In this document: positions 25,401 to 39,813 of the stretch, one piece after another
Layout of the letters: each line of letters opens with the position of its first letter
How positions within the stretch are numbered: position 1 is the first letter of the stretch
Source: Candidatus Cloacimonadota bacterium
GTDB lineage: Bacteria > Cloacimonadota > Cloacimonadia > Cloacimonadales > Cloacimonadaceae
NCBI GenBank assembly: GCA_020532085.1
Contig: JAJBAV010000017.1
Location: forward strand, 1 to 54,846
Direction of reading: 5' to 3'
Length of the DNA: 54,846 nt
Notes under the pieces: generated by a model
Databases searched by the model: none
Seen by the model: only the letters and a program-made list of their open reading frames with translations
Told to the model about the DNA's origin: nothing
Position numbers and translations under genes: made by a program

Positions 25401-25870
25401 ACAAAGGCAATCCCTACGCCTTCATAGAATTTGAAGACCTCAGCGGCCGCTTTGAAGTGGCGCTCTTCAACCAGGACTACGAAAGGCATTTTTCCAAACT
25501 GGCCACAGGCAGCATCTTCTTCGTGTTCGGCAACCGCTCTGGCTACAACGGCAATGAAGACAGCATGCCGCGGATCAGCCCCACGGACCTGGTCCCGCTG
25601 GCTGAGCTGCCCCAGCACCTGCGCGGCGAGATCCGCCTGAACCTGACCCTGGCCAGGCTTTCGGAGGAATTTGTGGATGCCTATAAAACCCTCACCGAAA
25701 AAAACCGGGGCGGCTTCTCGATCAAGGCCGGCATCACAACGAATGAAGGCGACAGCTACCTGCTGGACGCGCAAAGGAAGATTTTTCCCAGCAACGAGTT
25801 TTTGCAATGGCTGGAGGAAAAGCAATACGAATTCAGCCTGAGGGTGGCCCTCAATGGTAAAAGCGGCTGA
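22430..25870 (+). CDS. dnaE: DNA polymerase III alpha subunit
   Basis: 1146 residues from ATG 22430, preceded by AGGGAGAG; the frame is open upstream but MSFVHLHNHTQYSLLDG is the standard start. The PHP domain (HLHNHTQYS, AITDHGNLYG) is followed by the palm with catalytic aspartates in MPDFDIDFC, the VGPGRGSGAGS fingers-region motif, and the tandem helix-hairpin-helix region. A C-terminal OB fold (VLAGIVSGISRKRD, FEDLSGRFEVALF) follows. It is the DnaE1 replicative type; no exonuclease is fused. Its last 17 bp overlap the next gene, tying GWxTD expression to the replicase. Confidence 0.97.
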   Translation: MSFVHLHNHTQYSLLDGACRVDRMVALAKEYGMPAVAITDHGNLYGVIDFYKRATKAGLKPIIGMEAYIINGELDSEHNKSDTRYHLVLLAQNHTGYKNLMMLSSLSFIDGFYYKPRISKSLLEKHSEGLICLSACVKGEIASLLANDREDEAREAVIWHQKVFGDRYFLEIQDHGLDLERDVMPALIKLAKELNQPLVLTNDCHYLRKEDHEAHDILLCIQTGKTLNDPGRMKYNTDQLYFKSPEEMKTLFPEETEAYANTLRIADMIDLELKYDKFLLPEIETPQEFEDMGCYLRALCDEAAKLKYPEMTEEVQNRIDFELDVIHRMGFDGYYLVVKDLIDNARKQGVPVGPGRGSGAGSIIAYLLNITQIDPIRYGLLFERFLNPDRISMPDFDIDFCAQKRGLVIDYIVQKYGRNSVTQIITFSTLGAKSVIKDVARVLMVPATEANNITKTIPFNKNLEEAYKESPDFRHLIDNNELYQSIYKHSIVLEGLIRQTGIHAAGLVIAPGDLKEYIPLTCSTQKDSDTNILVQYEGRWLDELKFLKMDILGLKTLTLIQKTVDLVRQSHGVELDIDQLDLTDKKVYQLLSKGDTDGVFQFESDGMRKYLIDLKPNQFEDLIAMVALYRPGPMKFIDTYIARKHKREKVVYDHPVMEKTLKETYGVTVYQEQVMRISIEMAKFTRGQADTLRKAMSKKSLDMLMEFKQQFADGATSNGVRDKVADKIWNDWLDFAQYAFNKSHATCYALVAYRTAWLKAHYPVEFMAALLSLEDDPAKVPVKIEVCKAMGIKILPPNLNRSDKEFSVRGKEVMFGLKAIKNIGDAAIDAIVEDRRQNGAYASIFNFCSRLDSSAVNKTVLESLIASGSMDELEGSRAQKWAVIEQALSFNTGAQRDKRIGQTSLFDLITTDSGGEEYYPPLPVEEPWNYAYQLEKEKEVLGFYLGGHPLYEYRSLVKHLTNTSSQNIKSSSGKDLVLAGIVSGISRKRDNKGNPYAFIEFEDLSGRFEVALFNQDYERHFSKLATGSIFFVFGNRSGYNGNEDSMPRISPTDLVPLAELPQHLRGEIRLNLTLARLSEEFVDAYKTLTEKNRGGFSIKAGITTNEGDSYLLDAQRKIFPSNEFLQWLEEKQYEFSLRVALNGKSG

Positions 25871-26969
25871 ACTTGCGCTGCTTTTGCTCCTGCTGGCCAC
25901 GCTGCTGCCGGCCCAGGAGATCATCTTCGAGCACTACGGCACGGGGGTGGACCTGTGGGTTCTGATCCCCTACAACGCCTTGGTATTCAAATCCGGCGTC
26001 ACCGAATCCAACTTCCAACTGGTGATGGAACTGAAAAACACCAAGACCAAAAAGACGCTGGGTTTCGACCGGGCCTTTGTGGTGCCGAAGCGTTACTGGC
26101 TACAGGATACGGCCATCCCGGTGACTTTCAGCGCGGAGATCGGGCCGGGAAATTACCAGGCTGACCTGCGCCTGCGCAACCTCACCCAAGGCGACAAGGT
26201 TGATCTGAGGCGGAATTTCACCGTGGGAGAAAACTACACGGAGATCGGCCAGCCCTATTTCCTGCTCCGTAAAGAGGGCGTCACTTTCCAACCCGCGATT
26301 CTGCACCCCCTGCCGGTCCCGCTGGAAAGCTGCGTGCTTACCCAGAAGTTCAGCCTGGCCGCGGACAGCGTCCACATCGCCGGAATTGCTGACCCCCGCG
26401 TGTTCACTTACCCGCAAGGTTCATACACGGCCGACCTGACCGCCCCAGCCAACGCGGATTCCCTGGCCGGTCTGCGCCTCAGCCTCTATGAAGGCAACAT
26501 CCGCTACGACATGGCCCCCTTCCTCTACAGCCAGTTGTTCTACTACAACGCCCGCTACAGCTACAAAGACCAGATCCAGCAGCTGCGCTACATCGCCACT
26601 CAGAACGAATGGAAAAGCCTGCGGGCTGTTCCGGCGGAAAACATGCCCGAAGTGATCGACAGATTTTGGCAGGTGCACGATCCCAGCCCGGGAACCCTGC
26701 GCAATGAGGCCCGCGAAGCATTTTACCAGCGCGTGATGACGGCCGACGAGCGCTTCACCATCCATAAAAAACTGCAGGGTTGGAAGAGCGACCGGGGAAG
26801 AATCTACATCAAGTACGGTGAGCCGGACGAGACGCACAGCGAAGTGCATCCGCTGGACCTGTATCCTTACATAATCTGGACCTATTACAGCCAGAAACTG
26901 GAGTTCATCTTCGCCGACACCGGTGGTTTCGGCCAATACAGACTGAGGAACAAAGATGAAGAATATTAG
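25854..26969 (+). CDS. GWxTD-domain exported protein, first of a pair
   Basis: 371 residues. A signal peptide (LALLLLLLATLLPAQ) leads into beta-rich domains, and the C-terminal 65 residues form a GWxTD domain: LQGWKSDRGRIYIKYGEPDE (GWKSD in place of GWxTD), ending IIWTYYSQKLEFIFAD. GWxTD proteins occur mainly in FCB and related phyla and are of unknown function. The ATG lies inside the end of dnaE (17-bp overlap) and the gene overlaps the next by 14 bp, so translation is probably coupled. Confidence 0.82.
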   Translation: MVKAAELALLLLLLATLLPAQEIIFEHYGTGVDLWVLIPYNALVFKSGVTESNFQLVMELKNTKTKKTLGFDRAFVVPKRYWLQDTAIPVTFSAEIGPGNYQADLRLRNLTQGDKVDLRRNFTVGENYTEIGQPYFLLRKEGVTFQPAILHPLPVPLESCVLTQKFSLAADSVHIAGIADPRVFTYPQGSYTADLTAPANADSLAGLRLSLYEGNIRYDMAPFLYSQLFYYNARYSYKDQIQQLRYIATQNEWKSLRAVPAENMPEVIDRFWQVHDPSPGTLRNEAREAFYQRVMTADERFTIHKKLQGWKSDRGRIYIKYGEPDETHSEVHPLDLYPYIIWTYYSQKLEFIFADTGGFGQYRLRNKDEEY

Positions 26970-28290
26970 AGCATTGCTGCTCTGCCTGGCCCTGACCGGC
27001 CTGGGAGCGGCCGCCGCGGCCGAAACCTTTACCATGCACGTGGCTCCGCAGCGCTTTTTGAACAAGGACAACAGCACCATCCTCAACGTGGATTACCAGA
27101 TACCTTACGGCAATCTCTGGTTTTTGGCCCAAAAAGGCGGCTACTTTGCCGAACTGGACCTGCAGGTGGAAGTGGTGGTTGGGGACAGCGTTGTTTACAG
27201 CCAAACCTATCGCGACAACATCGGCATTTCGGACAAAAACGATTCCCGCTCCAACAAAAGCTATCTCAACCGGCTTACTTTCAGCCTGAACAGCGAGCCT
27301 TGGTTGCTGCGCGTGAGCGCCAAAGACCTCAATTCACGCAAAACCGCCAACTGGACCTATCAGGCTGAACCGCTGGGCGCGCAGGACCTGCTCAGCGATC
27401 TGGAATTATGCAGCTTTGTACGGCCGGACAGCAGCAGTTATCTGCAGCGGTTTCACCGCGGAAATGTCCTCTATCAGACCCAGCCCTCCCTGATCTTTGA
27501 CAAAACCGAGAGCGAAGACCTCACCATCTATTTCGAGACCTACGCTCCCGCGGACCTGGCCGGCGATACGGGCCTGCTGGTGCTGACCGTGGAAAAGGAC
27601 AGCGTAATGGTGTTTGACCGTTTTCTGGACTATGCCCCGTTATCCCACAACGAAGGAATCTCCCTGCGCATACCTCTGGAAAAGCTGAGCCCCGGCAAGT
27701 ACACCGGATCGGTGGAGTTTCAACTGGGAGAACAAAGCCAGGAAAGGGAGTTCATTTTCTTCCTCACCGAACCCAAACAAGAGCAGTTCTTCGTCTTTCC
27801 CGATCCGGATGATGATTTCAAACTGCTCAAATACTTCACTGGGGCCACCTCAACCGCAGACTGGAAAACTTACGACCTGGAAACCAAACGCAGATACCTC
27901 AGCCAAAGCTGGAAAGCCCTGGCCGCGGCGGGAGCCATGAACACCCAGACCCTGCTGGACCAGATCCGCGAGAGGGTGGACTACGCCAACTCCTACTATA
28001 GCCATTTCGAGCAGGGCTGGACCTCGGACATGGGGCGCATCCACATCCGCCAGGGAAAACCGGATGAGATCGAAAAAGGCACGTCTTCCGACGAAGCCCG
28101 CTTTGTGCGCAAAGACTATCAGATCTGGAAGTACCAGGGCCGTCAAAAAGCCGTTTACCTCTTTCTGGACATGCAGATGAACGGCAACTCCCGCCTGATC
28201 TACGTTGAAGGGGATCAAAGGGAAAGTTCGAACCCGGATTACCTGTATTACCTGGGGGACGACTTCGACACCAGCAAACTCTATAACTGA
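26956..28290 (+). CDS. GWxTD-domain exported protein, second of a pair
   Basis: 444 residues. Signal peptide ALLLCLALTGLGAAAAA, two or three beta domains, and a C-terminal GWxTD domain containing EQGWTSDMGRIHIRQGKPDE, then YQIWKYQGRQKAVYLFLDMQ. It is a divergent paralog of the gene before it and overlaps it by 14 bp. The upstream beta-sandwich part resembles a surface or periplasmic binding module. It is the last gene of the dnaE-GWxTD unit; the following 166 bp before yraN contain no gene. Confidence 0.82.
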   Translation: MKNIRALLLCLALTGLGAAAAAETFTMHVAPQRFLNKDNSTILNVDYQIPYGNLWFLAQKGGYFAELDLQVEVVVGDSVVYSQTYRDNIGISDKNDSRSNKSYLNRLTFSLNSEPWLLRVSAKDLNSRKTANWTYQAEPLGAQDLLSDLELCSFVRPDSSSYLQRFHRGNVLYQTQPSLIFDKTESEDLTIYFETYAPADLAGDTGLLVLTVEKDSVMVFDRFLDYAPLSHNEGISLRIPLEKLSPGKYTGSVEFQLGEQSQEREFIFFLTEPKQEQFFVFPDPDDDFKLLKYFTGATSTADWKTYDLETKRRYLSQSWKALAAAGAMNTQTLLDQIRERVDYANSYYSHFEQGWTSDMGRIHIRQGKPDEIEKGTSSDEARFVRKDYQIWKYQGRQKAVYLFLDMQMNGNSRLIYVEGDQRESSNPDYLYYLGDDFDTSKLYN

Positions 28291-28921: not shown

Positions 28922-30079
28922 ATGAAAAAAGTTATATTGAGCGTAATTGTTCTGGCAGCCGTGATCGGCATGATCGAAGCTGCGCCGTTCCAGACGATGG
29001 GATTGCTGCGCACGCCAGACGCGTATGTTATTCCTCACAAATCGGCGCAACTGGTTCTGGCTGGCTATTACAGAAACGTGGAAAGACCCTCTTACGTTGA
29101 CCCGGACAAAAATGGACTCAATTTCTACGGCATGCTGGGGGTAGGCCTGTTCGACCGCGTCCAGCTGGATTTCTTCGGCGGAGATTACGTCTATTTCCTA
29201 AACGCCAAAGTCAAGCTTCTGCAGGAAACGCCCAAGATCCCGCAGATCGCCGTCGGCATGGACAACATCCTCTCCCCGGTTAACCGGCGCCGGGCCCAAG
29301 ATTACAAGCCCTACTACTATTGGGACCCAGAGCAAGAGGCTGTAATTCACTCCAGCCTAAGGGATTCGTTGAATTTAGGCTGGATTGACCATCCAGACAA
29401 AACCGACTATGAGTATTTTTCCCCTTATCTCGTTGCCTCCAAGCAAGTGGTGATGGGCGGCATCGACTGGATGTTCAACCTCGGGATCGGAGCTAATCGT
29501 TATATTGGTCAAGTGGATCGTTCGCGCTGGTTTAGTGGTCTCTTTGCCTCAGTGGAGATATCGCCCTGGGACAATTTTGCCGTTCAGGGCGAATACGACG
29601 GCAAAGACTTCAATGCCGGCCTCAAGTACTCCATCAAGAATTTTGGCATCCGTTTGGGCGCGGAAGCGGTTGAAGACCTGGCCAAAGGTTCCGAAGGCAA
29701 CGGATATGAAAACAATCTCCGTATCGCCTTGGGGCTTTCCTACCTGTTCGACAGATTTTCGGACAAGAATGCCTCCATCCGTCCGGACCTCGGCCTCTAC
29801 GCCACCAACATCGGCACCGAACCCGTGATCGTTCCCACGGAGCCCGTGGCCGTGGCCACCACTGAAACCGGCCAGCCGGCTGAAGTGGCCATCGTTACTC
29901 CCGGCACCCAGCTTCCCACTCCCGGCATCGTCGAAGCCAGCGCCTACAAAGAACTTTCCCCGGAAGTGAAAGACCTGCTGGCGGAGTTGCGCCTCCTTCG
30001 CGAAGAACGCCAGAAAGCGCAAAAAGCGCTGGAAGATCTGCGCAAATGGCTGCAGGAGCTTAAGGAAGAAAACCAATAA
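28922..30079 (+). CDS. Predicted outer-membrane beta-barrel protein with C-terminal coiled coil
   Basis: 385 residues from the ATG after GGAGGGAAGT. Signal peptide VILSVIVLAAVIGMIEA, then FQTMGLLRTPDAYVIPHKSA, which resembles the start of YjbH-type outer-membrane proteins (a G-x-x-x-TPDA motif). Alternating hydrophobic, aromatic-rich strands (FYGMLGVGLFDRVQLDFFGG; YSIKNFGIRLGAEA) suggest a barrel to about residue 285. A Pro/Thr linker (305-345) and a charged coiled coil (350-385: LLAELRLLREERQKA) follow. It is the first gene of the motor cluster, 160 bp upstream of the giant TPR gene, and could provide the outer-membrane anchor. Confidence 0.6.
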   Translation: MKKVILSVIVLAAVIGMIEAAPFQTMGLLRTPDAYVIPHKSAQLVLAGYYRNVERPSYVDPDKNGLNFYGMLGVGLFDRVQLDFFGGDYVYFLNAKVKLLQETPKIPQIAVGMDNILSPVNRRRAQDYKPYYYWDPEQEAVIHSSLRDSLNLGWIDHPDKTDYEYFSPYLVASKQVVMGGIDWMFNLGIGANRYIGQVDRSRWFSGLFASVEISPWDNFAVQGEYDGKDFNAGLKYSIKNFGIRLGAEAVEDLAKGSEGNGYENNLRIALGLSYLFDRFSDKNASIRPDLGLYATNIGTEPVIVPTEPVAVATTETGQPAEVAIVTPGTQLPTPGIVEASAYKELSPEVKDLLAELRLLREERQKAQKALEDLRKWLQELKEENQ

Positions 30080-30152
30080 ATAGTTTTCGCACTGATCACC
30101 GTCTGGTGAATGTGCAGGTAAATACGTACATATTTCCCTTGGTCAAGGTTGA

Positions 30153-30187
30153 GATTCAGGATGCGACCCCCGGCTGCATCCTGAATC
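30153..30187. repeat. Hairpin between the barrel and TPR genes
   Basis: A perfect 12-bp stem (GATTCAGGATGC at 30153-30164 with GCATCCTGAATC at 30176-30187) and an 11-nt loop lie 51 bases before the TPR gene start. No T run follows. It may stabilise or attenuate the transcript between the two genes. Confidence 0.8.
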
Positions 30188-30238
30188 CTGCTTATAACTG
30201 GCAGGATTGATAACACAGGACGATAAGCGAGCGGGGTT

Positions 30239-33200
30239 ATGAAAAAACTCATCAAACTATATCTGTTGCTAACGCTGACAATGGTTCCCATTGCGCTGGC
30301 GCATGCTCAAGATGCGGTGGTCAGTCCGGATGTCCGGAGCGCGATTTACGCGGATCCCAAAGTCATAGAGGCAATAGATTTCCTGAAAGACAGGCTTCCC
30401 CAACTGGTGGAGGAGAACAAGTCCCAGGCCGTTGAAGAATACTTGCAGCATTACGAAAGTTTGAGCAAGCTGGACGAGGCTGACCTTCTTTATCTGGTGG
30501 GGCATTTTTACTCTGTTGTGGACGACCCCACGCAGGCCATCCCATATTTCGACGTTTTGATCAACGACCCCAAGCTCGGTGACGACGCCAGGATGATGCT
30601 CAATCTGCTGCTGTATTACAGGGCTGTGGATTACATCCAGAATCAGAATATCGAGACCGCGGCTCCCTTCCTGGAAGACGTGATGAACCGTTTTTCCACC
30701 GGCAAATATTACCCCACCTACATGTTCCTGTGGGCGGACCTCCTGGCAGAGGATGCCGAAGAGGCCAGGATCCAGGGCTACGTTGACGCCTATGAAAACA
30801 ACAAAGACTGGATCAAAAACACTTTCGTGAACCGCCGGCGGAGCGTGATCGGCCGCCTGGACGCTCTCGATCTGGATTCTTTTTATGCGGACCCAGACAC
30901 CAGCAAGGCCAATGTCCTGAAAGAGCAGGTTTCCTCCATCCAGCGGGACCTGCAAGACCTTTACAACGAGTTTAAATCCCTGCCCGGCTTGCAGTTCACC
31001 GAAGCTCTGAACAGGATCGCGGAAGAAGAAATGCGGCTGCTGGAAAATTTCAAGGCCCAGATCAGGCCGTTCGAATCGCTGCCCCCGATCGATCTCGCCC
31101 AACTGGCCTCGCCCGATTACACCGGACCCGAATCAGCCGCCTTCACCCGTTACCGCGAGGGCGCTATTCTGCTGAAGCAGCTTAAAGACACCTCCGTGTT
31201 TTACGGCAGGGTGCTGGATGTGATGGACCGCTTTTTCGAGCGGCGCTATGAACTTTTTGTGAACGAAGACGAGTCGGTGGTGGGCAAAGGCTTCAGTGAC
31301 ATGGAGCTGAAACGCCTTATGGACATCGAACGCAACATCAATATCTACACCGATGTCGTGGCGGGGATCGACAAGATCATGGCCGAGCCGAACTATGCCA
31401 GCCTGAACCTCGATCTGGGTCCCGAGCGGCAGGAATATGTGGAAAAGATCGCCGACCTGCAAAACCGCAAGGAACGCTACCTAGCTTTCCGCAAGCATCA
31501 GGACAGCGTTGAGGAAGCGATCTTTACGGAACTTTTAGACGAATACTACGCCACTTACCGCGATAAACGCTCCCTGGACGAACTGCTGCCGGAAGTGGAA
31601 GACGTGATGCTCACCATGATCCGGGAAAATTATCCCAAAGACCAGCAGGGCGTGATCGAAAAGCAGTACGCGCAAACCCACAAGGTTGGCCTGAAAGATT
31701 TTCCCATTAACGACACCTTCATCGCCAACCTGGATTTCCTGGGACTGATGGTGGACTATCGCAAGATCCGCTATCAGGAGCAGCAGCGTCTGGCCAAGGC
31801 TGATTCGCTGGGCGACGAGCAGCAGCGGGCGGAATATCAGAAGATCGTGCAGGACAAGGCTGAGCTGTTGGAAAGATATGAGGCCTTTGTTGCCGCCAAT
31901 CCATATTTTCAAGCCATGGAGCAGCCCAGCGGCGGATATTTGCTGAACAATGCCATCATCTATTACAACATGGCCGAACTGCAGTACGCGGTTGATCTGG
32001 ACAATCCCGAGAAAGCCCTCGCCCATTATAAAATGGCCTTGGAGATCGAGCCGGATTTCTACCTGCGGGACCGCGCCCTATACAACATCGGCTACTTAAG
32101 CAGCGAGGCCAAAAAAGTTGCCAAAAACGCCCAGATAGAGCAGTTCCGTGCCGCCAACCCCAATCAGGAGAGACCGGACCGGCTCAAATTCGCTGAGGCT
32201 GATTTCCGCGAAGCCCTGGATGCCTACACAGAGCTGGTGGATTCAGGCAAGTACGACGACTCGCCCTATTACGACGAGGCCGTGTACAGGCTGGGCATCC
32301 TCCATTTCCTGATCGGCTCGGACGCGAATGAGCCCGTCACCCACTATGCCGAAGCCAACCGCCGTTTCGACTCGCTGGTGAACGATCCCGACAGCGTCTA
32401 CCATCATGATGCCCTGTACCAGAGAGCTTGGGTGAACCTGAACCAAGGCGACGAACAATCCCTTAAATCGGCCCTGGCCGATTTTGTCACCCTCATCGGA
32501 GCGGCTGACAACAAAGAGATCACGGATGCCTATCTGGCTCAGGATTACCGGGATAACTCCATCGACAACATCGCCTATTCCCTCATCGCCCTCGACGGCA
32601 TCGATTTCAACCAGGAATCCAAGGGCGTGGGAGAAATCCGCAGAGCCCTGGCTGAATATTCCGATATCAAGGTGAAAACCCTCATCCTGGACAAGGCCGC
32701 GGGCATGAAAGTGGATATGGAAGCTCCGCTGCAGGCCATAGATTTCATGGAACTCCGGCTTCAGACCTCTCCTTATGAATTGCAGAACCCGGCTGTGGTG
32801 GATTCGATCATCAAGCTCTATTATACCCCCGGCCTGGAACTCCGTTCCGGCATGGACCTTACCCGGATTCGCGACGACAAGCTCGACTTCATCAAAGCCA
32901 CCTATGGCAAAGACACGCCGTGGTACCTGGAAAATGTTAAGGATGCGGACGCGGCAGCGCCGGAATTGAGGGCGCAACTGGAAATCATCCGCGATGCCTA
33001 TGAACAGATCCGCATCCGCCATTACAACAACCTGATCGATTCTGCCTCCAAAGCTGACCAACAGCTTTACGAGTTTCACATCGAAGCATATCAGCAGTAC
33101 ACCCAGCTGTTCCCCAACACCACTGTCCTGCAAGCTTTCATAGACGGGAACAGGCTAACGGAAATTCTGTTGGCCAGCCTTTTGGCTGAAAAGCGCAACG

Positions 33201-36073
33201 ATATCGAAAGCTATAACTTTGCGGCAACCAAGCTCACGGATTACAATCAGGATTTCCAGGGGAACCCAGATTACTTCAACAACGAAGGTCTCATCTACAA
33301 ATACAACCAGCGGATCTACTCGCTGTCCAAACCCGCCCCGGAAGATGACGCGACCTACTCACAGTATCGTGGTTCCGCGCTTAGATTTTACAATGTGCTG
33401 AAGGCATCCCAAAACCCGGAAGCCAGAAGCGGCGCGCCGGCGATCCTGATGGACCTGGCCGCGGTTGAACTGCACCACGGCCATCCCGACCAGGCCAAAG
33501 CTCACTACAACACCATCCTGGCAAGCGGGATGGAGATCGACAGGGCCACCAGCCGCAGCATTTATCTGAACCTGGCCAAAATCGAGGAAGACAACGGCAA
33601 CTTCAGCGAAGCTGAAAAAATGTACATCGCCGCCAAGGGCTTTTCCAACAACGCTACCGATGCCGGGGAGATCGAAAACCTGGTCCGGCTGCAGATCCAG
33701 AACAACTATGAAAAGGCGGAACAACAGGGTGACCAGCAGACCGTTGCCACAGAACTGATCCGTTTGGCGAATAAATTTAACGACGAACCTTCCCGCAGCC
33801 AGGGCTACCTGTTTATGGCCTCCGAGGCTTACGTCAAAGCCGGGCTGTACAATGAAGCCATCGCCCTGAAAACTGATCTGGCCGCGGTGAAGACCTCCAT
33901 GGACGAGAAATACGCGCTCTACGAACAGAGCTGGACCATAGCCCAGACCCAGATGAAAGACTCCGCCAAGGCGCGAGACCTGAAAAACGATTTCATCCAG
34001 CAGTTTCCTGCCAGCAACCTGGCCTTTCTCCTCAGGGTGGACCTCATCGAGGCAATGCGTCAAGATGCCGCGCAGCGCAGCAACGCAGCAGCGGCTTACA
34101 TCGACCTGCACAACGACGTGAAAGCAGATCGGATCGACAGCGGCGACATCAAGCCGGAAGAGATCTATCTTTGGGCTGTGGAGATCTACAGCAGCGAAGA
34201 CGATCAGGAAAAAGTGGTCGAGGCCCTCACCTACTTCACCCAAACCTATCCCAAACACAAAGAAACGCCCGGTTTCCTCACCATCCTGGCTGATTCCTAC
34301 CTTGCCCGCCAGGATCAGCAACGCTTTGAATACTACGCGCGGGAACTCTATCTGAGCGACAGCAGCAAATCTGAACGCTATCTCACAGTTGCCAACCGCA
34401 AGCTGGGAACCCTGGCCCAAGAGTTTGACACTGCCTACGCCGCCAGGAACTGGGACCTGGCTTTCCAGAAAAGGGACGAATTCAAGCGCCTGGAAGCCGA
34501 ATACCGCGGCGAAGGTTTGCCCGTGGAAAGCACAAAAGCCCATGAGGCCTTTGCCTTCGCAGAATCCGAGTACGCCATCCTGCAAGCCCGCCAGGCTTTT
34601 CTGGACGGCTTCGACCGCCAGCTGAACAGCATCGAACGCGGCAATTTCCTCACCGCGTCTGCCAACCAGCTGTTGCCAGTGGGCGCCGGAACCACCTGGC
34701 AGAAACATCTCTTTGGCGGCACGCCCAACCTGGTGCCTTCTTTCCAAACCAGATCCGAGCTCGAGGTGGCCAAGATCGTCAAGCTGCTGGACCAGACAGA
34801 GGCCGATAACCTGGATAACGAACGCCGCCTCAGGGCGCTGAGTTTGATCTGCCAGATAAACGACCGCGCCGCCCAAGTGGTGGAAACCCAGATCGATAAA
34901 TACATCCAGGTCTCCAATGAACTGGCCCCCTTCCGCGACCGCAAGAGGTTCAGCCAACAAGAATTTGACAATATGGTCAGCACCGAGATCAGGCCTTATT
35001 CCCAGCCCTATATTGACGTATATTACAACAATTCGAACCTGATCTACCAGGACATCTACAACAAATATTTCACGGCCGGCTACTTCGACCAGTACACCAC
35101 CAAGGCTGAGGACAAGCTCATCGAACGCAACTTGCTGCCGGAATACACCGAGGTCCGCCATGCGCTGGATAACGCCTGGAACGCCTGGCTGGCCAAACCT
35201 GCAGGCGGGTCTCAGAAGATCGACTCCACTTTTGGTTCCCTGATCCTGGATGACGGAAGGATGCTCTCCACTTACAGCGTTCCCTCCCAGCACGAGCTGA
35301 TTTTGGAACGCGAGTTCGAGTTTGAGGTCGTTCCCCGCTTTGCCTATGTCTATCTGGCTTACGAGCAGGATCCCCGGATCGTGGTAAACGGCAACGATAT
35401 CGATCCTGTTTTCATCCCCGTTTACAAAGAGGATTTCGGCACCGTCTTCGCGATCCGCGTCGACGGAGAGGCTTGGAAAAGCGGAGTGAACAGCTTCCGC
35501 GGAGTTTTCCCCAACGCCGTGATCTCAGAAGAACCGATCCATTTCAGTACGAGTTTCTTCTTCGACGCAGCGGAAATGTCCACCACAATCCCCACCGAAG
35601 TTATCACCCTGGTGTCCAATACTGACTGGACTGTGATCGGAACTGATCCTGATACTGGAGAAGAGATCAGGTCCTACGCCAGTTTGGCCCCGAACTTCGA
35701 ACTTCCCATGGACAGGTCCACCTTCCTGCAAAATGCCTCCGCGCAGCCCATCTGGGCATATGAGACGCAGGAAAGCCAGCAGACGGCGGTAGTATTTGAA
35801 AAGGAATTTGAGCTGTCCGCCGGTTTCGTGGATGGATATCTCGATTTTGTAGCCCCGGACAACGCCAGGCTGTTCCTTAACGACCAGCCCTTGGGCCCTG
35901 TTTACGAACTGAACTACGATACAGAGCCCTTCCTGGTGTATCCGGTGCGGGCCAGTTTGCCCGCTGAGCATCTGAAACCCGGCTTGAACAAGCTGCGCAT
36001 CGAAGTTCAGAACAATTCGCCCAACCGCGGCATGATCGCCGAACTGGGCTTCACAGTATCCGCCAAGGAGTGA
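30239..36073 (+). CDS. Giant exported TPR protein with duplicated C-terminal beta domain
   Basis: 1944 residues. Signal peptide LIKLYLLLTLTMVPIALAHA, so it is periplasmic or attached to the outer membrane. Residues about 30-1650 are almost entirely helical, with TPR-like units (e.g. LQYAVDLDNPEKALAHYKMA; EALDAYTELVDSG; HGHPDQAKAHYNTILA; YVKAGLYNEAIALKTDLA). The C-terminus holds two related beta-sandwich modules, starting near 1690 (EREFEFEVVPRFAYVYLAY) and 1854 (EKEFELSAGFVDGYLDFVA); each then has a short V/L-N-x-x element and a PVY/PVF turn, as in galactose-binding-like jelly rolls. It has a weak GCGGGG before the ATG. The ExbB/ExbD genes follow within 5 bp, so it is probably the load-bearing periplasmic part of the motor. 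Confidence 0.8.
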   Translation: MKKLIKLYLLLTLTMVPIALAHAQDAVVSPDVRSAIYADPKVIEAIDFLKDRLPQLVEENKSQAVEEYLQHYESLSKLDEADLLYLVGHFYSVVDDPTQAIPYFDVLINDPKLGDDARMMLNLLLYYRAVDYIQNQNIETAAPFLEDVMNRFSTGKYYPTYMFLWADLLAEDAEEARIQGYVDAYENNKDWIKNTFVNRRRSVIGRLDALDLDSFYADPDTSKANVLKEQVSSIQRDLQDLYNEFKSLPGLQFTEALNRIAEEEMRLLENFKAQIRPFESLPPIDLAQLASPDYTGPESAAFTRYREGAILLKQLKDTSVFYGRVLDVMDRFFERRYELFVNEDESVVGKGFSDMELKRLMDIERNINIYTDVVAGIDKIMAEPNYASLNLDLGPERQEYVEKIADLQNRKERYLAFRKHQDSVEEAIFTELLDEYYATYRDKRSLDELLPEVEDVMLTMIRENYPKDQQGVIEKQYAQTHKVGLKDFPINDTFIANLDFLGLMVDYRKIRYQEQQRLAKADSLGDEQQRAEYQKIVQDKAELLERYEAFVAANPYFQAMEQPSGGYLLNNAIIYYNMAELQYAVDLDNPEKALAHYKMALEIEPDFYLRDRALYNIGYLSSEAKKVAKNAQIEQFRAANPNQERPDRLKFAEADFREALDAYTELVDSGKYDDSPYYDEAVYRLGILHFLIGSDANEPVTHYAEANRRFDSLVNDPDSVYHHDALYQRAWVNLNQGDEQSLKSALADFVTLIGAADNKEITDAYLAQDYRDNSIDNIAYSLIALDGIDFNQESKGVGEIRRALAEYSDIKVKTLILDKAAGMKVDMEAPLQAIDFMELRLQTSPYELQNPAVVDSIIKLYYTPGLELRSGMDLTRIRDDKLDFIKATYGKDTPWYLENVKDADAAAPELRAQLEIIRDAYEQIRIRHYNNLIDSASKADQQLYEFHIEAYQQYTQLFPNTTVLQAFIDGNRLTEILLASLLAEKRNDIESYNFAATKLTDYNQDFQGNPDYFNNEGLIYKYNQRIYSLSKPAPEDDATYSQYRGSALRFYNVLKASQNPEARSGAPAILMDLAAVELHHGHPDQAKAHYNTILASGMEIDRATSRSIYLNLAKIEEDNGNFSEAEKMYIAAKGFSNNATDAGEIENLVRLQIQNNYEKAEQQGDQQTVATELIRLANKFNDEPSRSQGYLFMASEAYVKAGLYNEAIALKTDLAAVKTSMDEKYALYEQSWTIAQTQMKDSAKARDLKNDFIQQFPASNLAFLLRVDLIEAMRQDAAQRSNAAAAYIDLHNDVKADRIDSGDIKPEEIYLWAVEIYSSEDDQEKVVEALTYFTQTYPKHKETPGFLTILADSYLARQDQQRFEYYARELYLSDSSKSERYLTVANRKLGTLAQEFDTAYAARNWDLAFQKRDEFKRLEAEYRGEGLPVESTKAHEAFAFAESEYAILQARQAFLDGFDRQLNSIERGNFLTASANQLLPVGAGTTWQKHLFGGTPNLVPSFQTRSELEVAKIVKLLDQTEADNLDNERRLRALSLICQINDRAAQVVETQIDKYIQVSNELAPFRDRKRFSQQEFDNMVSTEIRPYSQPYIDVYYNNSNLIYQDIYNKYFTAGYFDQYTTKAEDKLIERNLLPEYTEVRHALDNAWNAWLAKPAGGSQKIDSTFGSLILDDGRMLSTYSVPSQHELILEREFEFEVVPRFAYVYLAYEQDPRIVVNGNDIDPVFIPVYKEDFGTVFAIRVDGEAWKSGVNSFRGVFPNAVISEEPIHFSTSFFFDAAEMSTTIPTEVITLVSNTDWTVIGTDPDTGEEIRSYASLAPNFELPMDRSTFLQNASAQPIWAYETQESQQTAVVFEKEFELSAGFVDGYLDFVAPDNARLFLNDQPLGPVYELNYDTEPFLVYPVRASLPAEHLKPGLNKLRIEVQNNSPNRGMIAELGFTVSAKE

Positions 36074-36077
36074 AGAG

Positions 36078-36386
36078 ATGAAAAAGACATTCCTGATCAG
36101 CCTTCTGATCCTGCTGGGAGCTTCTGTCTGCCTTGCCCAGGTGGACAGCGGTGAGACGGTCGTTACAGAGCCCGTGGAAACAGAAGTGATCGAAGGACGC
36201 GACCTGCAGATCCAGATCAAGACCATGATGCCTGACATCAGCGTGATCCAGATCAAAACAGATACCTACGCTCCGGCGGCAAAATACGATTTTACCATCA
36301 GCTTGGCCGCGATCCAGGCTGAGAGCAACAAACAACTTACAAATTGGAAACAAGAAATATTAACATGGCTAGAGGAGTCAAAATGA
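36078..36386 (+). CDS. Small exported protein of the motor cluster
   Basis: 102 residues with a signal peptide (TFLISLLILLGASVCLAQ). The mature part of about 80 residues has an acidic start (VDSGETVVTEPVETEVIEG), a predicted strand pair (DLQIQIKTMMPDISVIQIKT) and a helical end (NKQLTNWKQEILTWLEE). No family is recognised. It starts 4 bp after the giant TPR gene and overlaps the ExbB-like gene by ATGA, so it is tightly coupled to both and is probably a structural piece of the same complex. Confidence 0.65.
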   Translation: MKKTFLISLLILLGASVCLAQVDSGETVVTEPVETEVIEGRDLQIQIKTMMPDISVIQIKTDTYAPAAKYDFTISLAAIQAESNKQLTNWKQEILTWLEESK

Positions 36387-37153
36387 ATGCTAAGCACATC
36401 GTTCTCGTAATCCTAACCCTGGTGATCGGCCTTGGGGCCTTGGCGGCGCAGGAAGCGCAGGCAGCGGAAGTTAAAACAGACCCCGTGAACCTTGCCACCA
36501 TTTTCAGGGATAGCAATCAGCAAGGTTTCTTCGGATATCTGATCCTGCTGGTTTTCATCGTCGGCATCGTTTACGCGGTCATCCGCTACATCCAGCTGTT
36601 CCACAAAGAACGGATCAACGCCCAAAATCTATACAAAAGCCTGAAAGGCTATATCAAGAACGACCAGATCGAAGAAGCCATCAAGATCACGGAAAAAATG
36701 AAGGGCACCACCCTCGGCTTCATCTTCTTCAGCGGCCTGTCCGTATATAAGGACGTGCGCAGAACCGCCGCCAAGGAAGACATGAGCGCCCAGGTGCAGA
36801 ACGCCCTCGACGAAGCAGTGCTGCAGAAAGTTTACAAGATCGATGCCGGCCTCTTCTGGTTTGACACCCTGGCCCAGGTTTGCACCTACCTCGGTCTGCT
36901 GGGCACCATCTGGGGCCTGCTGGCCGCTTTCAACGCCCTCAGCCGTCCCGACGTGCTTGACAGCCAGAAAAACATCATGCTCTCAGCCGGCATCAAAACC
37001 GCCATCGGCACCACTGCCCTCGGTTTGATGGCCGCCATCCCGCTCACCCTGATCAAGGGCTGGCTGATAGGCAAAGCTCAGAAGCTTATCAACGAGATCG
37101 ACGAATACAGCGTAAAACTCATCAATCACATCAATATTTCAGCTAAAGGATAA
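36383..37153 (+). CDS. MotA/TolQ/ExbB-family proton channel protein
   Basis: 256 residues. An N-terminal signal-like segment (HIVLVILTLVIGLGALAAQ) precedes the three core helices: about 45-70 (FGYLILLVFIVGIVYAVIRY), about 160-180 (TYLGLLGTIWGLLAAF) and about 200-225 (IGTTALGLMAAIPLTLIKG). GLLGTIWGL and GTTALGLMAAIP are the conserved channel segments with the Thr residues that line the proton path. A basic, helical cytoplasmic loop lies between the first two. The extra N-terminal export signal is as in Bacteroidetes-type ExbB. It would form a pentamer around an ExbD dimer. ATGA overlap with the gene before. Confidence 0.92.
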   Translation: MNAKHIVLVILTLVIGLGALAAQEAQAAEVKTDPVNLATIFRDSNQQGFFGYLILLVFIVGIVYAVIRYIQLFHKERINAQNLYKSLKGYIKNDQIEEAIKITEKMKGTTLGFIFFSGLSVYKDVRRTAAKEDMSAQVQNALDEAVLQKVYKIDAGLFWFDTLAQVCTYLGLLGTIWGLLAAFNALSRPDVLDSQKNIMLSAGIKTAIGTTALGLMAAIPLTLIKGWLIGKAQKLINEIDEYSVKLINHINISAKG

Positions 37154-37157
37154 GATC

Positions 37158-37694
37158 ATGGCATACCGTCCTTCAGCCGGAAGGAACCAGCATCCAGTAT
37201 CAGTTCCGAAAGTTCCGGACCTGGTGCCGATCATGAACTTGTTTCTCACCGTCATCCCTTTTCTCTTGCTGATGCTGGTGATCACGCAGGTTGCGCTGGT
37301 GGCCTTCAACTTCTCTGCCGCGCCTCCCGGCCAGCCCGCGACGGTCGACGGCACTGAAGGCTTGAAAAAGGATGTTCCGGAAGTAACCGTCATCATCACG
37401 GCCTCGCAGGATTCCCTGAGCACCACCATCCCTGGTTTTGAGATCAGGGAACCAGGGCGCGACCCGGGTATCGTGGGACTTTCACTTGGCCAGTACAACT
37501 ATGTCATGCTCGATGCCGGCCTCAAGACCATCCGGGATAGGTTTCCGGATCTGCGGGACATCAGCGTGGCCCCTTATGATGACGTTCAATACGATGTCCT
37601 GATCAAAACCATCGATATCTGCCGGAGCAACGACTTTGCCAATGTTCACTACAAAGCCCCGCAGGTGCGCTATTACGTGATGGGGGGACAATGA
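37158..37694 (+). CDS. ExbD/TolR-like protein with Asn in place of the essential Asp
   Basis: 178 residues. A short cytoplasmic tail, one transmembrane helix (about 22-45: PIMNLFLTVIPFLLLMLVI), and a periplasmic domain of about 110 residues. In ExbD, TolR and MotB the helix begins P-x-x-D, and the Asp carries the proton. Here the position is Asn27 (PIMN). The periplasmic domain retains an ExbD-like layout (VPEVTVIITASQDSLSTTI; VAPYDDVQYDVLIKTIDI). It lies 4 bp after the ExbB gene and overlaps the second ExbD gene by ATGA. It is probably a non-conducting partner of that protein. Confidence 0.8.
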   Translation: MAYRPSAGRNQHPVSVPKVPDLVPIMNLFLTVIPFLLLMLVITQVALVAFNFSAAPPGQPATVDGTEGLKKDVPEVTVIITASQDSLSTTIPGFEIREPGRDPGIVGLSLGQYNYVMLDAGLKTIRDRFPDLRDISVAPYDDVQYDVLIKTIDICRSNDFANVHYKAPQVRYYVMGGQ

Positions 37695-38242
37695 GCAAAA
37701 ACCTGAATCCCCAAAATCTCAACCGCAGGGTGCGCCGCAAGTTCCCGGATGGAACTCCGCTGTCCATCATTTCCCTGGTGGACATCCTCACCATTCTGCT
37801 GGTGTTTCTGCTCAAAAACGTTTCCATGGAAGTGCAAAAACAGACCATGCCAAACAACATGACCTTCCCGGTAACCATGCAGAAGCGCGATCTGCTAGAA
37901 AACAAAGGCACCACCGTGGTCCAGATCTACCCGGACCGGATCCTCCTGGGCGAACAGGGCATCCATTTCGGCAGTCTGGAAGAATTTGCCTCTGACCCTG
38001 ACAAACGCACCGAGATCCTCTCGTATCTGCAAAGCACAGCCACGGAAATAGTTAAAACTTCGGACGCCAGCGGCAATCCCACCCCCACAGCCCTGCTCAT
38101 CCAGGCGGATAAAAGCATCCCCTGCTGGTACATTACGGAGTTTGTGAGCCTGGGAACCAGTTCCTTCTATGAATACATCTATTTTGCCACCCTCCTGGAA
38201 ACTGATTGGCTTGAAAAAAGTAAATCGAACACCAGTGGGTAA
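37691..38242 (+). CDS. ExbD/TolR-family protein with intact channel Asp
   Basis: 183 residues. Cytoplasmic basic tail (NRRVRRKFPDG), transmembrane helix about 25-42 (SIISLVDILTILLVFLLK) with Asp31 at the conserved proton-carrying position, and a periplasmic domain of about 135 residues. The latter shows the usual ExbD strand-helix order (GTTVVQIYPDRILLG; ALLIQADKSIPCWYI). The pair with the upstream Asn27 protein is the most unusual point of the cluster. GGGGGGA precedes the ATG; ATGA overlap with the gene before. Confidence 0.88.
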   Translation: MSKNLNPQNLNRRVRRKFPDGTPLSIISLVDILTILLVFLLKNVSMEVQKQTMPNNMTFPVTMQKRDLLENKGTTVVQIYPDRILLGEQGIHFGSLEEFASDPDKRTEILSYLQSTATEIVKTSDASGNPTPTALLIQADKSIPCWYITEFVSLGTSSFYEYIYFATLLETDWLEKSKSNTSG

Positions 38243-38251
38243 GGAGGTATG

Positions 38252-39766
38252 ATGGCAAAGACGATACTGAACCTAAGCCTCAACTACCGGGGAAAACATC
38301 TGGACACCATCCGCCAGGGAACCGATTTTGTCAACAAATGGCAGATCGGAACAGATAAGCATCTCTTCTGGCAGATCCTGGACGACACCCAAAAATTCCC
38401 CAGCAAACATAAGCTCCTGGTCAAGCGTGGAAATGACTTCCATCTGCAGCTGCCGGACGGCTCCCACCTCAGCTGCAGCAAGGACGGAAACCCGCTGGAC
38501 GCCAATTTCCTGAAACAGAACGGCATCCTCTCCGGCTCGTTGCTCAAGTTGCGCAACGACCTCAGCGGAACCGTGCAGATAAATCCGGATTACGAGATCC
38601 AGTTCGGCTACTCCGAACCGCGTAAAACGGTTCTGCGCCCGGAAGAACAGGCTGTGGTGAACAGCAGCTTGCAGCCGGCCACTCCCTCCGCGTCGGAACG
38701 CACGGAAACTGGACTGATCCTGCTCTTTCTCATTCTGGGCCTGGCCTTCGTGCTGATCTACGACCTCGTGATCAAACCCAGGATGGACAAGGAAAAAACC
38801 CTCACGGAAACCTTGGCGGAACTGGAAAGAGTGCGCAGGATAGAACCGCAGCTGGGTTTGACCGCGCCGCAAGCCACCACGCCGGATACACCTCCGGAAG
38901 AACCGAAAGCCGGCGATACCGCAGAGCCAAAGAAACCCGGCGGCAAACAACCTGCCAAACCCACCACCCGGACCACCGGCACAACCGGCGCCCGGCAGGA
39001 CCAGGGAGTTCCCGACAAAGGCCAGATCTTCGGCACCAACAGGCCCGGAGCCACCTCCGGCACCAGCAGGCCTCAAACAGCTTATGCCGTGACCGGCCTG
39101 CAGGATTTTGTCACCGCCCGTCCCGGCGCCAGAGGTTCCGCCACCGGCACCAGACCCGGCTCCGGAACATTCGATCCCAAAGCCTCATCAGGTTTTACCG
39201 GCTCCTTCGATCCCAAAGCCACTTCCGGCTTCAATGCTTCAGCCTCGGATGTGGGCCGGGTTGCCACAACCCAGCCCGGCGGCCCCGGATCGACCACCCG
39301 GCCGAACCTGCCCACCCAGACGTTCACCGGCGACGCTTCCAAGCTTCAGACCCCCTCCACCAGCCAGTGGCCCACCGTGCCATCGGCCCGGGAGGAAACT
39401 GAGAGGGTTACCCAGTCTGTGGTCAAAGCCCCGGATATCAGCAAGATACCCACTCCGGAAGTGAAGATCCCCAAACCCGCTTCCTCCGTTCCGGACGCCG
39501 ACGTCATCTACAACCAGATCGCCGCCCGCAAAGGCCAGATCGAGCAATCCTACAAAAAGAACGTTGCCATCAAGAAGCAAACCGGCTCCATCACAGTGCT
39601 GATGGACATAGCGGAGAACGGCAGCGTGTCGGCCCGCGTAACTTCGAACAGCGCCACCTTCACTCAAAGTTTCCTGAGTGATATCCAGCGGATCGTGGAA
39701 TCCTGGCGCTTCAACGTCTCCAAACCCACCAAATACCAGTTCAAAATGAACCTCACTCAAGCCTAA
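38252..39766 (+). CDS. FHA-like, one-TM protein with AgmX/PglI (TonB-like) C-terminus
   Basis: 504 residues from the second of two adjacent ATGs (AAGGAGG four bases upstream; the first ATG is one base from it). Residues 1-125 form a beta-rich cytoplasmic head resembling an FHA domain (FPSKHKLLVKRGNDFHLQL, PDGSHLSCS), without a complete phosphothreonine-binding signature. A transmembrane helix follows at about 154-171 (GLILLFLILGLAFVLIYD). Then comes a long Pro/Thr/Gly-rich periplasmic linker (about 200-400) with FDPKASSGF / FDPKATSGF repeats. The last 90 residues (IEQSYKKNVAIKKQTGSITV, then LMDIAENGSVSARV) match the AgmX/PglI C-terminal domain, related to TonB. It is the likely transmitter between the channel and outer parts. 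Confidence 0.8.
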   Translation: MAKTILNLSLNYRGKHLDTIRQGTDFVNKWQIGTDKHLFWQILDDTQKFPSKHKLLVKRGNDFHLQLPDGSHLSCSKDGNPLDANFLKQNGILSGSLLKLRNDLSGTVQINPDYEIQFGYSEPRKTVLRPEEQAVVNSSLQPATPSASERTETGLILLFLILGLAFVLIYDLVIKPRMDKEKTLTETLAELERVRRIEPQLGLTAPQATTPDTPPEEPKAGDTAEPKKPGGKQPAKPTTRTTGTTGARQDQGVPDKGQIFGTNRPGATSGTSRPQTAYAVTGLQDFVTARPGARGSATGTRPGSGTFDPKASSGFTGSFDPKATSGFNASASDVGRVATTQPGGPGSTTRPNLPTQTFTGDASKLQTPSTSQWPTVPSAREETERVTQSVVKAPDISKIPTPEVKIPKPASSVPDADVIYNQIAARKGQIEQSYKKNVAIKKQTGSITVLMDIAENGSVSARVTSNSATFTQSFLSDIQRIVESWRFNVSKPTKYQFKMNLTQA

Positions 39767-39788
39767 ACAACTACGAGAACATATCCAA

Positions 39789-39813
39789 CCCCGCTCCACC
39801 GGCGGGGTTTTTT
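39789..39813 (+). terminator. Intrinsic terminator after the motor cluster
   Basis: CCCCGC (39789-39794), 7-nt loop, GCGGGG (39802-39807), then TTTTTT. It closes the cluster 23 bp after the last stop codon. Confidence 0.9.

Follow-up and report, generated by a model that had tools for sequence, protein, structure and literature searches.

A predicted trans-envelope gene cluster of ExbB/ExbD type with an Asn/Asp ExbD pair in Cloacimonadota and other phyla

Gene content of the locus

The window analysed here, a stretch of 54,846 nucleotides whose nearest named records are Candidatus Cloacimonadota, carries seven co-directional open reading frames (ORFs) on the + strand (28922-39766), encoding a predicted outer-membrane barrel, an exported TPR protein, a small exported protein, an ExbB/TolQ-type channel, two ExbD-type proteins (ExbD1 and ExbD2) and a GltG-like protein. 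A previous reading made from the letters of the DNA alone (the sequence-only reading) had taken these genes as a trans-envelope motor cluster, and all seven ORFs were found in place. The most unusual feature of the cluster, absent from that reading, is its ExbD pair, in which an Asn replaces the membrane Asp of the first protein, whereas the second retains it.

The channel gene (gene 4, 36383..37153, +) encodes a protein of 256 aa that matched MotA_ExbB with 1e-21 (Pfam/NCBIfam). Its start was placed at 36383 because the small gene and this one overlap there in an ATGA; a second overlap of this type lies at 37691 between ExbD1 and ExbD2. Searches against the PDB matched TolQ/ExbB structures, TolQ being the nearest solved one, and the protein carries an additional N-terminal hydrophobic segment. 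ExbD1 (gene 5, 37158..37694, +, 178 aa) has its Asn at position 27, and ExbD2 (gene 6, 37691..38242, +, 183 aa) its membrane Asp at position 31, as assigned from ExbD matches and alignment. Against the ExbD model, ExbD1 scored 5e-4, below the curated cut-off, and ExbD2 1e-5, slightly above it.

Gene 7 (38249..39766, +) encodes a GltG-like protein of 505 aa, for which AlphaFold2 predicted an N-terminal beta domain, one transmembrane (TM) helix, a disordered linker and a TonB-like C-terminal domain. Foldseek gave weak matches to FHA domains, among the best for the N-terminal domain, and weak matches to TonB domains, and the AgmX/PglI C-terminal model aligned with 7e-9, its 35.7 bits falling short of the cut-off of 40. 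The proposed FHA-like/TM/AgmX-type architecture is thus sustained for the TM helix and the TonB-like end, while the FHA part comes from the predicted fold alone: the Pfam FHA model matched none of 57 gene 7 orthologues. In profile comparisons with GltG-type proteins of Bdellovibrionota, one of which was tested and has a Pfam FHA domain, the C-terminus of gene 7 aligned with 7e-7 (hhalign E-value) and the N-terminus gave no significant hhalign match. In Myxococcus, GltG is bound by AglR (PMC3169522); here and throughout, comparisons with Myxococcus are made with published descriptions, not with Myxococcota sequences. Short AgmX-type matches of ~145 aa found elsewhere in the family were discarded, as they correspond to a different small protein.

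Upstream of the motor genes, gene 1 (28922..30079, +; ORF, AlphaFold2, Foldseek) encodes a protein of 385 aa with a signal peptide, 12 predicted barrel strands and a C-terminal helix at residues 347-384 (predicted local distance difference test, pLDDT, 77). Its Foldseek matches were outer-membrane barrels such as FapF, KdgM and NanC; as their TM-scores were low, we claim no barrel family for it. A short, weak similarity to YjbH was detected in the window protein and in 21 of 46 orthologues (Pfam/NCBIfam). Gene 2 (30239..36073, +) encodes the exported TPR protein of 1944 aa, recognised by TPR matches in Pfam/NCBIfam. This fused gene is the state of the family of the window organism; most other Cloacimonadota families have two genes, of ~670-840 aa and ~1400-1500 aa, the second aligning to the fused protein from residue ~510 onward. 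In Cloacimonadota and Fibrobacterota a jelly-roll domain forms the C-terminus of the TPR protein. Compared with PDB profiles, it matched sugar-binding domains from carbohydrate-active enzymes, rhamnosidases among them, with 8e-13 for a joint profile of both phyla and 1e-5 for Cloacimonadota alone. Gene 3 (36078..36386, +) is a small exported ORF of 102 aa, and a small gene occupies the same slot in other phyla too, with weak sequence similarity beyond Cloacimonadota. A match of 3e-5 to a small protein of Bacteriovoracaceae, considered as a sign of a GltF-like homologue, was rejected: it stemmed from the signal peptide, and was gone once this was removed.

The 159-nt gap between the barrel and TPR genes (30080..30238, +) folds into a hairpin (~30155-30184; z -3.8 in RNA folding), preceded by the conserved box GGATTCATACTTCCTAT and showing compensatory changes at 11 of 11 pairs across 23 Cloacimonadota species. 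No Rfam family matched it. It is present where the TPR gene has the long fused form and absent where the barrel-TPR gap is of ~11 nt. The cluster had been described as having one terminator at its end; an intrinsic terminator-like hairpin does lie at 39787..39809 (+), but that description had overlooked the strong covarying hairpin that separates the barrel gene from the TPR gene.

Distribution and gene order

Among 125 Cloacimonadota genomes, 85 matched a gene 7 query and 94 an ExbD2 profile, 80 of the latter strongly (E < 1e-15). At 20 loci from across the phylum, ExbB, ExbD1, ExbD2 and gene 7 were contiguous with the TPR gene upstream in every case, and the barrel gene was present in 19. 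When GTDB genomes were scanned with an ExbB profile, loci were returned from Cloacimonadota, Fibrobacterota, Fermentibacterota, KSB1 and Calditrichota, plus one from Bdellovibrionota. In a wider sampling, all eight loci of Fermentibacterota showed barrel, TPR, small gene, ExbB, ExbD1, ExbD2 and FHA/TonB gene in this order. The same order was seen in most of 16 loci of KSB1/Calditrichota, with a separate gene of 460-500 aa ahead of the TPR gene; the barrel-like gene was assigned there by size and position alone, save at one locus. The Fibrobacterota clusters follow this order with a pair of TPR genes, of ~1150 and ~1000 aa, ahead of the motor genes, and most copies have a STAS-domain gene inserted between ExbD1 and ExbD2 (e.g., L128 11167-11493). 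In addition, one genome holds two full copies of the cluster, a main one (L048) and a diverged second one (L059 1-12117), both of the Asn/Asp type.

The recurrence of the order in 20/20 Cloacimonadota loci and in other phyla shows that the cluster is not a chance arrangement. The barrel, TPR and AgmX-like genes are conserved beside ExbB/ExbD in relatives, which was one of the points on which the sequence-only reading could have fallen; its proposal of an envelope machine that is proton-driven and related to Agl-Glt is supported. The distribution also shows that several FCB phyla have this machine by inheritance.

The surroundings of the cluster differ between phyla. Genes for OPX and Wzc-like proteins (Pfam) were found immediately downstream in 17 of the 18 Fibrobacterota loci with sequence there, whereas no neighbours of OPX/Wzc type were found in the loci of Cloacimonadota, KSB1 or Fermentibacterota.

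The Asn/Asp pair of ExbD proteins

In solved ExbD the membrane helix starts with P-x-x-D, the Asp being that of the PFID motif, and the ExbD1 profile aligns P-x-x-N there. All 51 distinct sequences from Cloacimonadota had Asn in ExbD1, and all 51 had Asp in ExbD2. The Asn/Asp combination was found in 76 of the 77 loci from the ExbB-profile scan, the lone exception being the Bdellovibrionota locus. By phylum, it occurred in 27/27 Fibrobacterota, 27/27 KSB1/Calditrichota and 18/18 Fermentibacterota, so that all FCB homologues looked at (~150) carry the Asn in ExbD1, and the Asp of ExbD2 is invariant. Bdellovibrionota relatives were Asp/Asp in 27 of 29; the two departures are one Asn/Asp and one Ala/Asp (L226 1423-1950; L232 1417-1983). 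Altogether, 184 distinct ExbB-ExbD1-ExbD2 triplets comprised 152 Asn/Asp, 30 Asp/Asp, one Ser/Asp and one Ala/Asp, and the threonine of the ExbB GTIxGL motif was retained in all of them. With the proton-path threonines of ExbB kept and the Asp of ExbD2 invariant, the channel looks active.

In an ExbB tree, the main copies of each FCB phylum grouped together with supports of 94-100, and the Asn/Asp state required three changes. A single clade of all Asn rows was rejected by the approximately unbiased (AU) test (p 0.0003); as those rows included one from Bdellovibrionota, one change or more must have taken place outside the FCB phyla. Paralogous systems of Fibrobacterota also contain an Asn-type ExbD, of ~265 aa (L174 970-1761; L168 895-1707), and Asn/Asp pairs are therefore not confined to this type of cluster. 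Our literature searches, which with the terms used cannot prove absence, found no report of Asn-bearing ExbD pairs.

In Myxococcus, AglQ and AglS both have the membrane Asp (PMC9389320), and the D28N change in AglQ abolished proton conductance, motility and sporulation (PMC3858216). ExbD1 was assigned to the AglQ slot from the gene order aglR, aglQ, aglS and because the first ExbD of Bdellovibrionota scored with the ExbD1 profile. The FCB branch can thus be regarded as a natural mutagenesis experiment, in which the first ExbD always bears the substitution that is lethal to the Myxococcus motor in AglQ. From this constancy it follows that the axle is a heterodimer in which a single site works, or else that one of the two ExbDs lies off the proton path, and both outcomes bear on the working of 5:2 motors. 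For pairs of AglQ/AglS type, the literature describes the choice between hetero- and homodimers as unknown (PMC9389320).

Relation to known systems and proposed mechanism

The sequence-only reading had presented the cluster as a candidate undescribed machine, a claim that is not supported, since its core was already described by Luciano et al. 2011 (PMC3169522) as a conserved set (aglRQS + gltD/E/G/C) of unknown function in non-gliders, including Fibrobacter. That core complex was found in Gammaproteobacteria, Fibrobacter and Geobacter, many of its carriers being non-gliding, and it is regarded as the probable origin of both the Agl-Glt machine for gliding and the Nfs machine for sporulation (PMC3169522). 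As in the core complex, the FCB clusters combine in one genomic cluster one TolQ-type channel gene with two TolR-type genes behind it, a GltG-type FHA-TM-TonB gene and exported TPR protein(s); the last, possible counterparts of GltD, GltE and GltC, were found throughout the sampled clusters. They differ from it by the conserved outer-membrane barrel, the small exported gene and the Asn of ExbD1, and widen its range to Cloacimonadota, Fermentibacterota, KSB1 and Calditrichota (the Fibrobacter entries of that paper were compared by description only). Given the same parts list, we file the cluster as a variant, the FCB branch, of the broad Agl-Glt/Nfs core-complex family; it is not filed as an Agl-Glt gliding machine, because the Asp pair, an MglB-type protein and a second AgmX-type protein were not found.

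The Agl-Nfs machine of Myxococcus xanthus, which moves exported spore-coat polysaccharide over the cell surface (PMC3858216), likewise pairs an AglRQS motor with a Glt-like transducer (PMC3858216). Its AglQ requires Asp28 (PMC3858216), a residue that the FCB counterpart lacks, and nfs and agl are separate loci in M. xanthus, whereas the FCB set is a single one. A gliding machine of Agl-Glt type would share with the cluster a TolQ, two TolR, the FHA-TM-TonB protein GltG, exported TPR and outer-membrane barrel parts, and yet we consider it highly improbable. The Asp in both TolR-type subunits, proper to AglRQS, is absent from the FCB members, where an Asn/Asp pair is encoded at a single locus; no Roadblock (MglB-type) protein was detected with PF03259 in the window genome; only one AgmX-type protein was matched there, leaving no second one (GltJ) within the limited reach of a single-sequence query; and many non-gliding bacteria have core complexes (PMC3169522). 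Motility, one of the functions suggested in the sequence-only reading, thus finds no support here. It is also highly improbable that the cluster serves Cloacimonadota as an ordinary system of TonB or Tol-Pal type. TolQ is the closest solved structure to ExbB, ExbB/TolQ and ExbD/TolR homologues are shared with ExbBD-TonB and TolQRA, and gene 7 ends in a TonB-type domain, but the cluster differs from these systems in its two different ExbD genes, its FHA-fold cytoplasmic domain and its long TPR scaffold, the giant TPR and barrel genes being conserved partners. Furthermore, no TonB-dependent receptor, TolB or Pal was found within the cluster (Pfam/NCBIfam), the OmpA-family proteins of the window genome sit on other contigs, and that genome has other ExbB/ExbD sets, one of them a separate ExbB-ExbD-ExbD set on another contig (C3), in which both ExbDs carry Asp. 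The sequence-only reading, which an ordinary TonB system would have refuted, stands on this point as well.

Two further explanations deserve more weight. A dedicated polysaccharide-secretion machine, with the motor driving polymer through the outer membrane, would fit the OPX and Wzc genes directly downstream in Fibrobacterota, the YjbH-like barrel and the sugar-binding-like ending of the TPR protein; we regard it as unlikely, given that the loci of Cloacimonadota, KSB1 and Fermentibacterota lack such neighbours, that the window genome has no OPX gene and that Agl-Nfs of Myxococcus acts after export (PMC3858216). For the window organism itself, a polysaccharide exporter was rejected, as no OPX protein is present, and the polysaccharide link is for the same reason not general. 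Less easily set aside, although still doubtful, is a motor made of ExbB and an ExbD2 homodimer, with ExbD1 as an accessory outside the proton path, which might for example plug or regulate the motor, or bind peptidoglycan or gene 7 as an anchor in the membrane. The proton site of ExbD1 lacks an acidic residue, the Pfam ExbD score of ExbD1 in the window is below the cut-off, and a non-conducting paralogue would be free for another role. Nevertheless, ExbD1 retains a near-unchanged P-x-x-N membrane motif and an ExbD periplasmic match, both ExbDs are always present together beside ExbB, and the constraint on the membrane part of ExbD1 is about that on ExbD2.

Considering gene content, synteny, distribution, the Asn/Asp pattern and the predicted folds, we favour, with reasonable though far from full confidence, a proton-driven trans-envelope force machine with a heterodimeric one-Asp ExbD axle, which would move outer-membrane or surface material; the heterodimer, the force path and the cargo are what we infer. 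ExbB would form the pentameric channel, and ExbD1 and ExbD2 its heterodimeric axle, with the proton-binding Asp on ExbD2 alone; the heterodimer is suggested because a homodimer of ExbD1 would have no proton carrier. Movement of the motor would be passed to the FHA-TM-TonB-like protein of gene 7, whose C-terminal domain may cross the periplasm and act on the small exported protein, the long TPR scaffold and the barrel. The outcome would be a pull on, or a movement of, material that lies within the outer membrane or on its surface. The GltG architecture of gene 7, the binding of GltG by AglR in Myxococcus (PMC3169522), the transport of spore-coat polysaccharide by Agl-Nfs (PMC3858216), the sugar-binding-like end of the TPR protein and the weak YjbH similarity of the barrel also speak for this explanation. 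In Fibrobacterota the cargo is probably exopolysaccharide, since the cluster lies directly upstream of OPX/Wzc export genes, and this locus supplies a concrete cargo hypothesis; in the window organism, which lacks an OPX protein, it could be another surface polymer or an outer-membrane component. The narrower proposal of an asymmetric proton motor conserved across phyla, in which an ExbB pentamer surrounds an obligate ExbD1/ExbD2 heterodimer with one proton-carrying subunit, is put forward more tentatively, at slightly less than an even chance. If true, each turn of such a motor would move 5 protons instead of 10, in steps of 72 instead of 36 degrees, and two ion-binding sites would not be needed in this motor class.

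Several observations weigh against the force machine with a heterodimeric axle. The cluster is missing from some near-complete Cloacimonadota genomes, no Poly_export (OPX) protein was found in the window genome, and for the TPR, small and barrel genes no orthology to Glt proteins of Myxococcus could be established. The jelly-roll ending is absent from the TPR proteins of Fermentibacterota and KSB1/Calditrichota, and jelly-roll folds need not bind sugar. Finally, the motor could run on homodimers of ExbD2, which would leave ExbD1 to a different role.

Regarding the neighbourhood, two GWxTD-domain proteins are encoded upstream of the cluster (25854-28290), a position kept in most Cloacimonadota. 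Between them and the cluster lies a divergent gene on the - strand, which we take from its sequence to be YraN-like, and the gene downstream of the cluster is presumably priA, also named from its sequence. Elsewhere in the window genome (L057 7753-9923), a MotA/ExbB-like gene of 503 aa is followed by a MotB-like gene of 220 aa and preceded by genes of 1088 and 216 aa, an arrangement that resembles a putative Zorya-type defence set.

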